A stretch of 43,081 nt of DNA from Alphaproteobacteria bacterium (GTDB taxonomy: Bacteria; Pseudomonadota; Alphaproteobacteria; Rs-D84). Numbering within the stretch: the stretch's first letter is position 1; each line of letters begins with the position of its first letter. The translations under genes were made by a program, and so were the position numbers. The stretch is taken from positions 1-43,081 of the forward strand of contig WSMU01000003.1 in assembly GCA_013316395.1 (NCBI GenBank). The letters are read 5' to 3'. Positions 3,396 to 39,765 of the stretch are shown one piece after another. Under the pieces are notes generated by a model. It saw nothing but the letters and a program-made list of their open reading frames with translations. It was not told the origin of the DNA and ran no database searches.

Positions 3396-4313
3396 ATGAA
3401 AAAAGCAGGATTTTTAGCACTTTCTTTGGCTATTATGCTCATTGCTGGTGCTGCACGTGCGGATATTGCATCTACATCATATGTAGAAAACGCCATTGCG
3501 CAAAAAGAAGACGTATCAAACAAGGCTTCAGAAACCTACACATCCGACAGCACGACACAATACCCGTCAATCCGCGTTGCAGAAACGATTGCCGCCAAGG
3601 CGGTTCAGGGGCTGGGTGATTTGGCGGGCCTGGACCAGGTTGGTACGGATGAGATAAAGGACGGCGCTGTAACAAAGGTAAAGTTGGATACATCTGTTCA
3701 GGCATCGCTGGGCAAGGCTGATACTGCGGTTCAGTCGGCCGCGCTGACCGCGGAAACACAGGCGCGGACAAATGCAGATAATGCTATTAACACCAAAATA
3801 GGTACCGTGCCCGCCGGAAAGACAGTTGTCGGTATGATTGATGAGGCAAAGACCGCGGCAACATACGATGATACGCAGGTTAAGGCGGATATTGCAGCGA
3901 ATACAGCGGCTATTGAACAAGCTCAGGCTGATGCGACAAAGGGTATTGGTGACGCAGCGGCCGCTGCACAGACAGCTAATGCGGCCAAGGCAGCGATAGA
4001 TAATGCGTCTACTGGTCTTGGGTCTAAGTTGCCAACGGCAACATATAATACTCAGGTAGGTACGGTTAGTGCAGCAAATATGGGAACAACTGCGACAACA
4101 GTAGTTGCTGCAATTAATGAAGTATCGAAAGAAGCTGCGGCTGCGGATGCCAAGGCTGTGGCTGCAGATACCAAGGCGACCGCGGCACAAAGCGCGGCCT
4201 CTGCGGCAAATACATTGGCGGCGGCGGCGATTCCAAAGCCATCGGGTACATGTAAGGATTGTGTGCTGAAGTATAATGGCACGGCCTTTTCCTGGGAGGA
4301 AATCGGTCGTTAA
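3396..4313 (+). CDS. Secreted coiled-coil-type protein, paralog of the local array
   Basis: Start moved to MKKAGFLALSLAIMLIAGAARA (signal peptide) followed by DIASTSYVENAI; C-terminal IPKPSGTCKDCVLKYNGTAFSWEEIGR. The track start at 3381 is upstream of the signal peptide. Confidence 0.68.
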   Translation: MKKAGFLALSLAIMLIAGAARADIASTSYVENAIAQKEDVSNKASETYTSDSTTQYPSIRVAETIAAKAVQGLGDLAGLDQVGTDEIKDGAVTKVKLDTSVQASLGKADTAVQSAALTAETQARTNADNAINTKIGTVPAGKTVVGMIDEAKTAATYDDTQVKADIAANTAAIEQAQADATKGIGDAAAAAQTANAAKAAIDNASTGLGSKLPTATYNTQVGTVSAANMGTTATTVVAAINEVSKEAAAADAKAVAADTKATAAQSAASAANTLAAAAIPKPSGTCKDCVLKYNGTAFSWEEIGR

Positions 4314-4420: not shown

Positions 4421-5650
4421 ATGAAGAATATAGCGGGTGTTTTTGCAGTTTCTTTTATCGCGATTATGTCTGTGGTTGCGGCCCATGCAGATGTTGCTTC
4501 TACGGATTTGGTTGATAGACGATTTGAAGCGTTGGCTACGGTGGCAAGTACGGGCTCTTATAACGATTTGACGAATAAGCCGACAATTCCCGCGGCTCAG
4601 GTTCAGCCGGACTGGAATGCAACCACGGGTATGGGGGCGATAAAAAATAAGCCTACGTTGGGCGCGCTGGCATCGAAAGCGTCGGTTACAAGTGCGGAGA
4701 TTACAGACGGCACTATTGTAAATGCGGATATTTCCGCAACAGCCGGGATTGCGCCTTCAAAGATTAACATAGATAAGCTTACTACATATGATACCACGCA
4801 TACAGACAATGATGAGCGAATCCCTTCAGTAAAGGTGGTAGAGAGCATTGCCGCCGTATCTGCGGATGCTGCGCTTGTCGCCGCTAAGAATGTATATCAG
4901 GTTAAGTCTAATGCGAATTACCAGATGGGTTCAGCAAATGGGGCTTGGACTACGATGAGTGGTTCTCAGCAAAATGCTTTGAATTCTGGCATTACAACGG
5001 CAAAAGTAACCAAGTACGATAATTATGCCACAGGTAAGCAAGATACTTTGACCCCTGGGAGTAATGGAAATATTAAAGGGGCTGGTAGTGTGACTGTGAC
5101 TAAGGATGCCTCTGGTGTTATAACCGTATCTGGAACAGACACAAATACAGTTACAACAGCGACAACAACCGGTACCGGAAATGTTGTTTCTGCTATTACG
5201 GCAAATAACGGTGCGCTTACGGTTACAAAAGGCGTTACAGCGGCAACACCTGGTGATATTACAAATGCTATAAACGCGTTGGATGTTGCGGCATCAACCG
5301 CGGCTGGAAATGTCGTTACAAATGTTAGTCAGACAGATGGAAAAATTTCTGTAACAAAGGGAACAATAAGTGTTCCGACTGTGAATAACGCTACGCTGAC
5401 AATTAAGCAGGGGGGAGCTGTTAAGGGTACTTTTACCGCGAACCAGGCCACCGCGGCAACAATTGAGTTAACTGATAATAATACAACATATACGGCCAGC
5501 GGTTCAAATGGTGTTTCTGCATCAGTTAGTGGTACGTCGGTGAACGTATCCGGTGTATCCGCAACGCGTGATGCGGTTGGGGTGGCAAAGCTGGGAGTTA
5601 TTCCGGTTGGAACCACTGGTACGGCAACCGCTACTATTTGGGTTGAATAA
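4421..5650 (+). CDS. Secreted Thr/Ala-rich fibre-like protein (duplication copy 1)
   Basis: MKNIAGVFAVSFIAIMSVVAAHA signal peptide followed by DVASTDLVDRRF; repetitive beta/low-complexity body; followed by a terminator. Confidence 0.7.
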   Translation: MKNIAGVFAVSFIAIMSVVAAHADVASTDLVDRRFEALATVASTGSYNDLTNKPTIPAAQVQPDWNATTGMGAIKNKPTLGALASKASVTSAEITDGTIVNADISATAGIAPSKINIDKLTTYDTTHTDNDERIPSVKVVESIAAVSADAALVAAKNVYQVKSNANYQMGSANGAWTTMSGSQQNALNSGITTAKVTKYDNYATGKQDTLTPGSNGNIKGAGSVTVTKDASGVITVSGTDTNTVTTATTTGTGNVVSAITANNGALTVTKGVTAATPGDITNAINALDVAASTAAGNVVTNVSQTDGKISVTKGTISVPTVNNATLTIKQGGAVKGTFTANQATAATIELTDNNTTYTASGSNGVSASVSGTSVNVSGVSATRDAVGVAKLGVIPVGTTGTATATIWVE

Positions 5651-6417: not shown

Positions 6418-7143
6418 ATGCAGAAAAAACGTACAAATTCAAATCGACCCGACCGCATTGCGGCCAAGGTTCAGGTGCTGGTTGCGGAAATATTGCGTGA
6501 TAATTATGGAGAGGACCCCATTTTGCGCGGGGCATCGCTGGGCAAGGCTGATACTGCGGTTCAGTCGGCCGCGCTGACCGCGGAAACACAGGCGCGGACA
6601 AATGCAGATAATGCTATTAACACCAAAATAGGTACCGTGCCCGCCGGAAAGACAGTTGTCGGTATGATTGATGAGGCAAAGACCGCGGCAACATACGATG
6701 ATACGCAGGTTAAGGCGGATATTGCAGCGAATACAGCGGCTATTGAACAAGCTCAGGCTGATGCGACAAAGGGTATTGGTGACGCAGCGGCCGCTGCACA
6801 GACAGCTAATGCGGCCAAGGCAGCGATAGATAATGCGTCTACTGGTCTTGGGTCTAAGTTGCCAACGGCAACATATAATACTCAGGTAGGTACGGTTAGT
6901 GCAGCAAATATGGGAACAACTGCGACAACAGTAGTTGCTGCAATTAATGAAGTATCGAAAGAAGCTGCGGCTGCGGATGCCAAGGCTGTGGCTGCAGATA
7001 CCAAGGCGACCGCGGCACAAAGCGCGGCCTCTGCGGCAAATACATTGGCGGCGGCGGCGATTCCAAAGCCATCGGGTACATGTAAGGATTGTGTGCTGAA
7101 GTATAATGGCACGGCCTTTTCCTGGGAGGAAATCGGTCGTTAA
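6418..7143 (+). pseudogene. Chimeric ORF: the N-terminal ~38 codons of RbfA fused in frame to the C-terminal ~200 aa of the 3396-4313 secreted protein
   Basis: MQKKRTNSNRPDRIAAKVQVLVAEILRDNYGEDPILRG matches rbfA at 9248, then ASLGKADTAVQ... matches the 3396-4313 protein; junction at 6531. Confidence 0.9.
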
Positions 7144-7250: not shown

Positions 7251-8480
7251 ATGAAGAATATAGCGGGTGTTTTTGCAGTTTCTTTTATCGCGATTATGTC
7301 TGTGGTTGCGGCCCATGCAGATGTTGCTTCTACGGATTTGGTTGATAGACGATTTGAAGCGTTGGCTACGGTGGCAAGTACGGGCTCTTATAACGATTTG
7401 ACGAATAAGCCGACAATTCCCGCGGCTCAGGTTCAGCCGGACTGGAATGCAACCACGGGTATGGGGGCGATAAAAAATAAGCCTACGTTGGGCGCGCTGG
7501 CATCGAAAGCGTCGGTTACAAGTGCGGAGATTACAGACGGCACTATTGTAAATGCGGATATTTCCGCAACAGCCGGGATTGCGCCTTCAAAGATTAACAT
7601 AGATAAGCTTACTACATATGATACCACGCATACAGACAATGATGAGCGAATCCCTTCAGTAAAGGTGGTAGAGAGCATTGCCGCCGTATCTGCGGATGCT
7701 GCGCTTGTCGCCGCTAAGAATGTATATCAGGTTAAGTCTAATGCGAATTACCAGATGGGTTCAGCAAATGGGGCTTGGACTACGATGAGTGGTTCTCAGC
7801 AAAATGCTTTGAATTCTGGCATTACAACGGCAAAAGTAACCAAGTACGATAATTATGCCACAGGTAAGCAAGATACTTTGACCCCTGGGAGTAATGGAAA
7901 TATTAAAGGGGCTGGTAGTGTGACTGTGACTAAGGATGCCTCTGGTGTTATAACCGTATCTGGAACAGACACAAATACAGTTACAACAGCGACAACAACC
8001 GGTACCGGAAATGTTGTTTCTGCTATTACGGCAAATAACGGTGCGCTTACGGTTACAAAAGGCGTTACAGCGGCAACACCTGGTGATATTACAAATGCTA
8101 TAAACGCGTTGGATGTTGCGGCATCAACCGCGGCTGGAAATGTCGTTACAAATGTTAGTCAGACAGATGGAAAAATTTCTGTAACAAAGGGAACAATAAG
8201 TGTTCCGACTGTGAATAACGCTACGCTGACAATTAAGCAGGGGGGAGCTGTTAAGGGTACTTTTACCGCGAACCAGGCCACCGCGGCAACAATTGAGTTA
8301 ACTGATAATAATACAACATATACGGCCAGCGGTTCAAATGGTGTTTCTGCATCAGTTAGTGGTACGTCGGTGAACGTATCCGGTGTATCCGCAACGCGTG
8401 ATGCGGTTGGGGTGGCAAAGCTGGGAGTTATTCCGGTTGGAACCACTGGTACGGCAACCGCTACTATTTGGGTTGAATAA
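7251..8480 (+). CDS. Secreted Thr/Ala-rich fibre-like protein (duplication copy 2, identical protein)
   Basis: Same 409-aa translation as 4421-5650. Confidence 0.7.
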   Translation: MKNIAGVFAVSFIAIMSVVAAHADVASTDLVDRRFEALATVASTGSYNDLTNKPTIPAAQVQPDWNATTGMGAIKNKPTLGALASKASVTSAEITDGTIVNADISATAGIAPSKINIDKLTTYDTTHTDNDERIPSVKVVESIAAVSADAALVAAKNVYQVKSNANYQMGSANGAWTTMSGSQQNALNSGITTAKVTKYDNYATGKQDTLTPGSNGNIKGAGSVTVTKDASGVITVSGTDTNTVTTATTTGTGNVVSAITANNGALTVTKGVTAATPGDITNAINALDVAASTAAGNVVTNVSQTDGKISVTKGTISVPTVNNATLTIKQGGAVKGTFTANQATAATIELTDNNTTYTASGSNGVSASVSGTSVNVSGVSATRDAVGVAKLGVIPVGTTGTATATIWVE

Positions 8481-15818: not shown

Positions 15819-15846
15819 CCGGGGACAATCGTCCCCGGTTCATTTT
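15819..15846. terminator. Terminator hairpin between convergent genes
   Basis: CCGGGGAC-AATC-GTCCCCGG then TTCATTTTT. Confidence 0.7.
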
Positions 15847-16649
15847 TAATCATGATGGCAGTCATTGTTTACGATTGTAAAACTGCCTGTTTGATCGCCG
15901 TATTGCGTACCTTTGGGTATATAGCAGTCTGTTTGCAGGGTAGAGCCAGGTGCAGAAGTTGCCGGCCCCGGATAGGCTGGCCATCTGTTACAGGTTGATG
16001 TGGCTGATGTTGGTGTGCCGTAATAATGTTCCGCACAGCGATAATTGGTCGTCTGGGACCAGCCAGAAGATGCACATGTATAAATGCTTTCCTTTTCAAT
16101 CATTGGTACGTTATAGGTCGAGTCTTTCTTTGCCGTTTCCCAGTAAGTGTTTTCTGGTTTGGTGTCGATATAACATTTTTGCGTACATTTTCCGCTTATG
16201 CATATATAGCCTTTTTCGTTGTCGCATTGGTTGTTGTTGGTGCAATAGTTTGAAATTTGGAGACACCGGCCATATATTTCATTGATGTTTTTTTGACACT
16301 TAAATCCACTTACGCAATCGCTGTCGGACTGGCATGAGCATATTATATTGCTTAATACGCCTATTATACTGTTGTCGTTAAATTCTTGTAGCCCCATTGC
16401 GTTTATAAGGTTGGCCTGACATGCTGCGGTGACATTTAATGCGCAGTTGCCACCGCCCCAGCCATTTTTTGTTACCAGGCGCCAGTAGTTGTCACGATAG
16501 TTCAGGCTTTCTATGCCGTAAACATTTATGTATTTTGATGTGCATTCTGTAAAAAGGCCGCCAGGGTAATAGGTGCTGGTATCCGCGGCCCCGTGGCATG
16601 CCCCGGTTGCCAGGATGAATGCAGCGAACGCTGTTGTTATTTTTTTCAT
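15846..16649 (-). CDS. Cys-rich secreted protein with an EGF/CCP-like Cys pattern and the shared C-terminal module
   Basis: MKKITTAFAAFILATGACHGA signal peptide; CSCQSDSDCVSGFKCQ; C-terminal YRCAEHYYG...GSTLQTDCY...GDQTGSFTIVNNDCHHD. Confidence 0.75.
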   Translation of the reverse strand: MKKITTAFAAFILATGACHGAADTSTYYPGGLFTECTSKYINVYGIESLNYRDNYWRLVTKNGWGGGNCALNVTAACQANLINAMGLQEFNDNSIIGVLSNIICSCQSDSDCVSGFKCQKNINEIYGRCLQISNYCTNNNQCDNEKGYICISGKCTQKCYIDTKPENTYWETAKKDSTYNVPMIEKESIYTCASSGWSQTTNYRCAEHYYGTPTSATSTCNRWPAYPGPATSAPGSTLQTDCYIPKGTQYGDQTGSFTIVNNDCHHD

Positions 16650-16669
16650 TTTCTAACTCCTTGTTTGGT

Positions 16670-16697
16670 AAACAAAAAACCACCAAGGATTTGGTGG
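16670..16697 (-). terminator. Intrinsic terminator at the 3' end of structured leader A
   Basis: Minus strand CCACCAA-ATCC-TTGGTGG-TTTTTTGTT, about 20 nt before the ATG at 16649. Confidence 0.8.
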
Positions 16698-16905
16698 TCG
16701 GGGAGTTAAGAAAATCATACAACATAATGACCCCGCCAGCTTTTGGATAAACCTGTGGTATGGCTGACGGCTCCCCGACGCTATGCGGGGGGTACAATAG
16801 CGGGCGCAGAAAAATGCGCCGCATATATGCGGATTACGATGTATCGATACACCGATGTTGTATGGGATTTCTTAAGTCCCAGAACCCACATCCCTGTAGA
16901 TTCAA
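16670..16905 (-). ncRNA. Structured RNA element, copy A (candidate cis-regulatory leader or sRNA; unassigned class)
   Basis: Homologous in sequence and structure to 39326-39568; helices preserved by compensatory changes; promoter-like sequence at the 5' end and terminator at the 3' end. Confidence 0.75.
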
Positions 16906-38768: not shown

Positions 38769-38788
38769 ACGTGCATCTTATAAAAATA

Positions 38789-38820
38789 ACGGGGCCATGT
38801 TGCCCCGTTTTTATTTTTTA
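38789..38820. terminator. Bidirectional-looking terminator between rpsK and the convergent Cys-rich gene
   Basis: ACGGGGC-catgtt-GCCCCGT followed by TTTTATTTTTT. Confidence 0.8.
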
Positions 38821-39300
38821 ATCACTATAGTAACAGTCGTTTATGTATTGATAAGTGCCGCTCTGGTCCCCCATCTCGATGTCGGCGGGCTGATAGCATT
38901 CGGTAATTACACTTGCGCCCGCAGCGGCGGTTGTGCCATACATGCCGTCCGACACGGGGCAGCGCGTGCATGATGTCCCTTTGCCGTAATAGCCTGTAAA
39001 ACACCGGTATTCGCATAATGCATTTGTTGCTGTTTTTCTGCATCTTATTTGATAATGCATATTGAGGATACTTGTCCATGTGGTCTTGGGACATGCGGCT
39101 GGGCATTCCGCCGGGTCGATTATCGTGCTAATACAGCCTGCCTCGGCGCATGTTTCACTACTGCTGCGACAGCAGGTGGGTTCGCCTGGCTTAATCGGGC
39201 AGTGAACAATGTATATGTTGTCGCAGGTGCGGGCAATGGCATTGTTGGCAAGTATAATGCCAAAGGCGGCTCCGCATAATAAGGTAATCGTTTTTTTCAT
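38818..39300 (-). CDS. Small Cys-rich secreted protein, same family as 15319-15816 and 15846-16649
   Basis: Start set to MKKTITLLCGAAFGIILANNAIA; C-terminal YRCFTGYYGKGTSCTRCP...GASVITECY...GDQSGTYQYINDCYYSD. Confidence 0.75.
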   Translation of the reverse strand: MKKTITLLCGAAFGIILANNAIARTCDNIYIVHCPIKPGEPTCCRSSSETCAEAGCISTIIDPAECPAACPKTTWTSILNMHYQIRCRKTATNALCEYRCFTGYYGKGTSCTRCPVSDGMYGTTAAAGASVITECYQPADIEMGDQSGTYQYINDCYYSD

Positions 39301-39325
39301 GCTTTCAAATCCCTGTCTTTGTGTT

Positions 39326-39354
39326 AAACAAAATGCCGCCATGGAATTGGCGGC
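39326..39354 (-). terminator. Terminator-like hairpin at the 3' end of structured leader B
   Basis: Minus strand GCCGCC-AATTCCAT-GGCGGC-ATTTTGTTT. Confidence 0.7.
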
Positions 39355-39568
39355 CGGGGATTTCAGAAAATCATAACATAAAATGACCCCGTGGCTTTTG
39401 GATTAAACCTGTTATATAGCCACGGATCCCCGACCGGTTAAAATCGGGTGATATAAAACACACGGCGCATTATTGCGCCGACGCATTTTGTCGGATTCAG
39501 TGCGTATCATCGCACAGTTATGTTATGGGATTTCTGAGGTCCCTGAGCCAACATCCCTGTTGATTCAA
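39326..39568 (-). ncRNA. Structured RNA element, copy B (same class as 16670-16905)
   Basis: Shared blocks TTGAATC-ACAGGGATGT, AAATCCCATA, GGCGCA..TGCGCC, TCGGGGA, ACAGGTTTA(A)TCCAAAAGC, GGGGTCATT, TATGATTTTCT, TCCCCG, plus preserved helices. Confidence 0.75.
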
Positions 39569-39573
39569 AAAGA

Positions 39574-39603
39574 AGTATATAAATTGTGTGTGCTTAAGTA
39601 AAG
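39574..39603 (-). promoter_or_regulatory. Candidate promoter of structured RNA copy B
   Basis: Minus strand TTTACT - 17 nt - TATACT shortly before conserved TTGAATC. Confidence 0.45.
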
Positions 39604-39665
39604 AATAAAAGAGTGGTTTTGGGAATCAAAAGTAAAAAAATTGTATATGCATGGGGCTTAACAGA

Positions 39666-39694
39666 TTGACTTTCTGATATTATTGATATAAGAT
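39666..39694 (+). promoter_or_regulatory. Candidate promoter for rpoA
   Basis: TTGACT - 17 nt - TAAGAT. Confidence 0.55.
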
Positions 39695-39765
39695 GTTATT
39701 CGCATGAAAAACTCATGCATGCCGAAATGGTGAAAATGATAAACTAAGCCAAATGGAGCAACATC

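Follow-up and report, generated by a model that had tools for sequence, protein, structure and literature searches.

A predicted C4-like antisense leader RNA, repeated throughout a small alphaproteobacterial genome

The stretch of DNA analysed here (43,081 nucleotides, referred to as the window) carries, between rpsK (S11) and rpoA and on the opposite strand, a structured leader RNA followed by a gene for a Cys-rich protein. The initial annotation of this site described the leader as the second copy (B) of an RNA found elsewhere in the window (copy A), and proposed either a conserved RNA function or a dispersed gene cassette. The question raised by the locus is what such an RNA does in front of the genes it precedes. 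The evidence reviewed below indicates that the leader is probably a cis-encoded antisense RNA of the C4/sRNA-Xcc1 type, the a'b' arm of which would pair either with a strand named a1b1 or with the downstream start site.

Copy B occupies positions 39330-39568 of the minus strand, with a sigma-70-like promoter, a terminator and, 30 nt further on, the start of the ORF. In the 5' to 3' direction the elements come in the order promoter, P0, a1b1, P3/P4, P5, P6, P9 (with b' in its loop), a', P7b, terminator and ORF start. The RNA, of 229 nt, has a folding energy of -85.7 kcal/mol, as against -59.1 +/- 4.4 kcal/mol in dinucleotide shuffles (z = -6.0, 0/200). The promoter-like site (39574-39602, minus strand) reads TTTACT-17-TATACT and matches the consensus at 9/12 positions; a TATAAT-like box also lies directly 5' of nearly all other copies, and for copy A no promoter passed a simple consensus scan. 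Next come the 5' hairpin P0 (39544-39567; TGAATCAACA-GGGA-TGTTGGCTCA) and the a1b1 strand (39518-39543; GGGACCTCAGAAATCCCATAACATAA), at the start of which, position 39543, a covariance model built from plasmid-type copies (R3) begins to align. The core of copy B is the long-range helix P1, formed by this strand with TTATGTTATGATTTTCTGAAATCCCC; it covaries between copies and is present in the minimum-energy folds of both window copies. The first part of a1b1 can alternatively form a local hairpin, P2. The hairpins P3 (39500-39515, GTGCG/CGCAC) and P4 (39464-39482) are variable, and P5 (39428-39448, CCCGA...TCGGGG) excludes P7 and vice versa, its 3' strand being common to P7a.

P7a (39426-39435; GGTCGGGGAT) marks the 5' end of a C4/sRNA-Xcc1-like module. 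In copy B the letters before it are CC, where many relatives have TAT as part of a TATGG|T junction of RNase P type; a junction of this type is present in plasmid copies and absent from both window copies. The hairpin P6 (39389-39425, CCGTGGC/GCCACGG) contains an inner loop, TATATAACAGG...CCAAAAG, which is conserved in alignments A1 and A6. The b'-a' strand, made up of the P9 loop and the strand after it (39356-39386), is complementary to a1b1 and partly to a2, and P7b (39352-39361; ATCCCCGGCC) shares 3 nt with the 5' arm of the intrinsic terminator (39330-39354; GCCGCC..GGCGGC-ATTTTGTTT), which ends in a T-rich tail. The candidate a2 (39298-39313; GGGATTTGAAAGCATG) extends from the ribosome-binding site to the start codon and is complementary to a' (...CTGAAATCCC). 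The nesting is a1-b1, then P7a, P6, P9 with b' in its loop, a' and P7b, and then the terminator, a2 over the ribosome-binding site and the ORF (38821-39300), which encodes an exported Cys-rich protein of 160 aa with 16 Cys and without a Pfam family. All of these features lie on the minus strand. The sequence elements named in the initial annotation (TTTACT-17-TATACT at 39602-39574, P0, GGCGCA/TGCGCC and the other hairpins, the ATG at 39300) were all recovered in place, and the structured nature of the RNA and its position inside the alpha operon were borne out; the dominant feature, P1, had been absent from its list of hairpins.

Copy A (16673-16905, minus strand) has the same architecture. 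Its candidate a2 (16647-16660; GGAGTTAGAAAATG) is complementary to a' (ATTTTCTTAACTCC) with one bulge, and the corresponding GGGATTTGAAAG of copy B mirrors a' less well than this start region does. The gene that follows (15846-16649, minus strand) encodes an exported Cys-rich protein of 267 aa with 19 Cys, again without a Pfam family. The comparison of leader with coding region proposed initially gave 71% identity over about 270 nt for the leaders, and for the two proteins only a C-terminal stretch of 77 aa in common, at 35% identity. The window also contains a direct duplication (3701-4000 and 6531-6830; 300 nt reported at 100% identity, spacing 2830 nt), and equal-length ORF pairs repeat at the same spacing (4421-5650 and 7251-8480); this is either a recent duplication or an assembly artefact.

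Both window copies belong to a large set. Covariance models point to about 46 credible copies in the 0.82-Mb genome from which the window comes. The model R2, made from a second, compact subtype of the leader present in this genome, gave 50 places at E up to 1, and the figure of about 46 was obtained from this list by adding copies A and B and removing doubtful or overlapping places. The survey of the genome that had been called for thus turned up many leader-plus-gene units which are not large uniform duplications, and the proposal of a conserved RNA function beside diverged coding sequences is supported. RNA copies also lie in the first 300 nt of contig ends (C12, C28, C40 and C45), so the assembly may break there and the figure of about 46 may be an underestimate. 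Several copies are arranged in tandem. One such array, comprising about five RNA units, lies behind a clpX-like gene (named by eye; C24, L080 1290-2240); several of its units have a TATAAT box and terminator of their own, and no ORF separates them. A decayed third copy (C45:9977-10114, L003) has lost its terminator and parts of P0 and P2, and adjoins a fragment similar to the C-terminal module found in the Cys-rich proteins.

Beyond this genome, R1, a covariance model of the 3' half of the leader, matches 91/96 genomes within the genus ("Candidatus Enterousia", an inferred assignment), and a DNA search detected relatives in 23/59 genomes. R1 combined with a pattern scan found members in many Alphaproteobacteria, cultured ones among them. 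Across the class, R3 matched 40/289 genomes and 31/223 genera; it also recovers copy A (16695-16880) at E 3e-9 and copy B (39351-39543) at E 9e-9. The three models come from different subtypes, and each recognises members of the others. Moreover, about 210 PLSDB plasmids, most of them conjugative, match the Pleomorphomonas or the pSinA copy. Outside the class, R3 matched 13 genomes of the phylum, and of the 11 places examined most had the same parts. A pattern scan of viral contigs gave 44 matches, all of them by chance in GC-rich phages, and a BLAST search of phage records with a phylum-level copy gave no match.

The genes behind the RNA are diverse. In the own genome the ORF mostly starts 20-40 nt past the terminator, on the same strand. 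About 11 copies precede exported Cys-rich proteins, and about 14 precede small proteins, mostly Xre/Cro HTH-like (several only below Pfam cutoffs), the sorting having been made by eye and with Pfam. The link with Cys-rich genes suggested by the initial annotation is thus unspecific, only about a quarter of the copies preceding them. Elsewhere in the genus the copies precede autotransporters, PMP and YadA domains, OMPs, a glycosyltransferase and a pyruvyl transferase, and in other genomes genes for RovC-like proteins, GIY-YIG proteins and DNA methylases. In phylum relatives outside the class the RNA precedes the phage antirepressor families AntA, Bro-N, Rha and P22_AR_N.

Furthermore, on plasmids the RNA immediately precedes traM, which encodes a conjugation antiactivator; examples are pTiA8196 (a Ti plasmid), pSinA, pS11L-2, pAt2788b and pB323S2b. 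In traM leaders a2 and b2 were not evident by eye. In Pelagibacterium (L246) the gene behind the RNA is of the TraM family and is flanked by partition-like and trb-like genes (neighbours assigned by eye). On pTiA8196 (L362 2072-2741) the RNA and traM are immediately preceded by a gene of the ProQ/FinO family; the ProQ/FinO partner suggested by this neighbourhood was rejected, ProQ being found in 0/36 relatives. Among other RNA-related observations in this field, the Ti plasmid sRNA QfsR affects quorum sensing (PMC7912708), and TraM is lower in an hfq mutant of A. tumefaciens (PMC4201532).

Evidence for the proposed function comes from the pairing within single copies. When the 5' strand was paired with the 3' strand, the energy was -22.9 kcal/mol within the same copy and -12.4 kcal/mol between different copies, and the own partner was the best in 32/46 copies; the window copies performed poorly here because their cut began at P3 and not at a1. 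In the 11 phylum-level relatives the corresponding values for a1b1 were -31.3 (own) and -22.8 (other; p = 8e-5), and for the ORF leader (a2b2) -29.3 and -24.5 (p = 0.003), both a2 and b2 being readable in the leader of these relatives. For a' against the start region in 91 genus copies, the own pairing reached -13.3 as against -11.4 for others (p = 5e-7; permutation p = 2e-4), a modest signal in Enterousia, where the own start region has a median rank of 24th of 91, and one that is partly due to the general complementarity of the CCTCC-type P7b to any Shine-Dalgarno sequence. In copies A and B a2 is visible and b2 is not evident. In alignments made without regard to structure, 52 of 83 named pairs were changed on both sides, and G-U cells outnumbered A-C cells (140 vs 37), which points to an RNA of this strand. 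A comparison of seven similar compact copies showed differences at 49% of positions in b1 and b', and hardly any in P7b and the terminator.

Since the own start region pairs better and the phylum relatives have a readable a2 and b2, antisense control of translation appears to be the most likely mechanism for the leader. The architecture, the complementarity of a1b1 across copies, the terminator, the placement of the ORF and the likeness to annotated C4 are legible in the sequence itself. On this basis we infer processing of the RNA, antisense repression and the independence of the loci, as follows. The leader would be driven by its own promoter in front of the gene to be controlled, and its 3' half (P7, P6 and P9, up to the terminator) would become a separate RNA of about 100 nt, through termination of transcription or through an RNase P-like cut before P7a. 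The b'-a' arm could then be sequestered on the a1b1 strand of its own precursor or, in the repressing state, lie on a2, that is, on the ribosome-binding site and ORF start, so that translation would be blocked. As each locus keeps its own complementary a/b sequences, the loci should act independently.

Other explanations have to be weighed against this one. The leader might be a riboswitch or a protein-responsive attenuator, in which a ligand or protein at the conserved P6 loop would pick between two exclusive folds: P1, P5 and an intact terminator (off), or the local hairpins P2 and P9 with P7 (on), where P7 would take 2-3 nt of the 5' arm of the terminator. Several features of the RNA suit such a device, since the alternative pairs P5/P7 and P2/P1 are both conserved, P7b overlaps the terminator, a terminator precedes the ORF in nearly all genus copies, and no other unpaired part is as conserved as the P6 loop. 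The downstream genes, however, have no pathway in common, a1 and b1 vary among the copies, as an aptamer core would not, and many plasmid copies do not possess a T-run terminator, so that this reading is considered unlikely. As to particular candidates, c-di-GMP is an unlikely ligand because a search for GGDEF proteins was negative in all of 18 genus genomes (control genomes being detected), and a double-pseudoknot riboswitch was dropped in view of the long duplex, the complementarity to the ORF start and the annotation of phage P1.

The cassette half of the initial proposal would make the unit chiefly a mobile gene element, integron- or transposon-like, its structure serving recombination at the DNA level. 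Tandem copies without ORFs, insertion between core genes, near-identical copies in different families of Alphaproteobacteria and the occurrence of sRNA-Xcc1 in integron cassettes speak for mobility. Nevertheless, the excess of G-U over A-C on one strand, the fixed places of promoter and terminator and a pairing that fits RNA argue against a DNA-level role; neither an insertion boundary nor a target duplication was established, and the own genome alone had the RNA at the rpsK-rpoA site. A mobile gene cassette is conceivable, but mobility as the main function is quite improbable. An integron attC was rejected, its core sites not fitting by eye, as was a conserved insertion at rpsK-rpoA, given a gap that varies within the genus and contains the RNA only in the own genome. 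Across the genus this gap (38769-39765 in the window) measures between 134 and more than 1300 nt; inserted sequence thus repeatedly breaks up the alpha operon. The tandem copies without an ORF, together with the abundance of C4-like RNAs as stand-alone transcripts in A. baumannii (PMC5320573), would suit stand-alone trans-acting small RNAs, for example in phage superinfection immunity, with the downstream gene as a mere neighbour; the regular distance and same-strand orientation of the ORF described above make this very improbable.

If the leader is a cis-encoded antisense RNA, its wider meaning may be set out tentatively. An antisense RNA of the phage-immunity type might have been amplified, in a reduced genome, to dozens of independent cis regulators with private a/b codes, by which surface and regulator genes would be switched singly, and might also control the plasmid quorum-sensing antiactivator traM; this is possible rather than probable. 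The dense leader set belongs to gut bacteria whose genomes do not exceed about 1 Mb. For a regulator of the structured RNA kind, one copy per 18 kb would be extremely dense: the known classes of riboswitch number some tens of copies in genomes that are far larger. The leader on Ti and other conjugative plasmids, apparently unannotated so far, offers a handle on the restraint of conjugative transfer via traM, and the gut-bacterial set one on how an uncultured lineage might control exported proteins. Present Rfam misses nearly all members of this RNA group, which ties together the C4 immunity RNA of phages, the integron sRNA-Xcc1, the traM leader and the leaders of gut bacteria.

Finally, the leader can be compared with known systems. 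The record of phage P1 has the order promoter P51b, a1, b1, c4 RNA (77 nt), a2, b2, icd and ant, and the leader copies the order of these parts as known for C4/c4-a1b1 of phages P1 and P7 (RF01695, RF03163, clan CL00128). In Rfam, C4 is a long stem that encloses two hairpins and, 3' of these, a linker leading to the closing strand, which is the topology of the 3' module of the leader: P7 encloses P6, P9 and a' in alignments A1, A3 and A6 as in the C4 structure line, and an a1b1 strand complementary to b'a' lies upstream in the leader copies. RNase P cleaves C4 at GGW, and roles of a' and b' have been described (PMC5320573). In both systems the a/b sequences vary between loci, and the candidate target of the leader lies, as in C4, at the ribosome-binding site; C4 precedes ant, and distant relatives of the leader likewise precede antirepressor-type genes. 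Unlike C4, the leader has an intrinsic terminator and a conserved P6 loop, the latter without counterpart in C4, and its downstream genes encode exported proteins, small HTH proteins and conjugation antiactivators. None of the copies tested matched RF01695 at E up to 1 (some up to 5), the P1 control scoring 68.8, and R1 and R3 do not find the C4 sequence in phage P1, so common descent with C4 is only a possibility. At the gathering threshold, Rfam found only a tRNA in the whole window.

The similarity to sRNA-Xcc1 (RF02221), an integron- and plasmid-borne sRNA of Xanthomonas, extends to scores at the 3' module: 29.5 for copy A, 41.9 and 46.5 for two genus copies (L010 and L008) and 69.9 for a phylum relative (L403), the cutoff being 53 bits, so that window and genus copies fall below it (29-47), and copy B is not listed. 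This family of 87 nt coincides with P7, P6 and P9; sRNA-Xcc1 was verified by Northern blot as an 88-nt RNA (PMC2996969), and it lies upstream of an ORF, as the leader copies do, namely symE in integron cassettes (PMC12444791). In contrast to the leader, it has neither the 5' half (P0, a1b1) nor the proposed target at the ORF start. As a working classification, the leader is filed as a predicted C4-like RNA, kin to sRNA-Xcc1, with the window copies below the cutoffs of both families. A precedent for many C4-type copies per genome is provided by the Group 1 C4-like sRNAs of Acinetobacter baumannii, which vary mainly in a' and are processed from longer transcripts (PMC5320573); these were described as sRNA genes in a gammaproteobacterium, whereas the genome of 0.82 Mb considered here contains about 46 copies, as a rule each fused to an ORF of its own.
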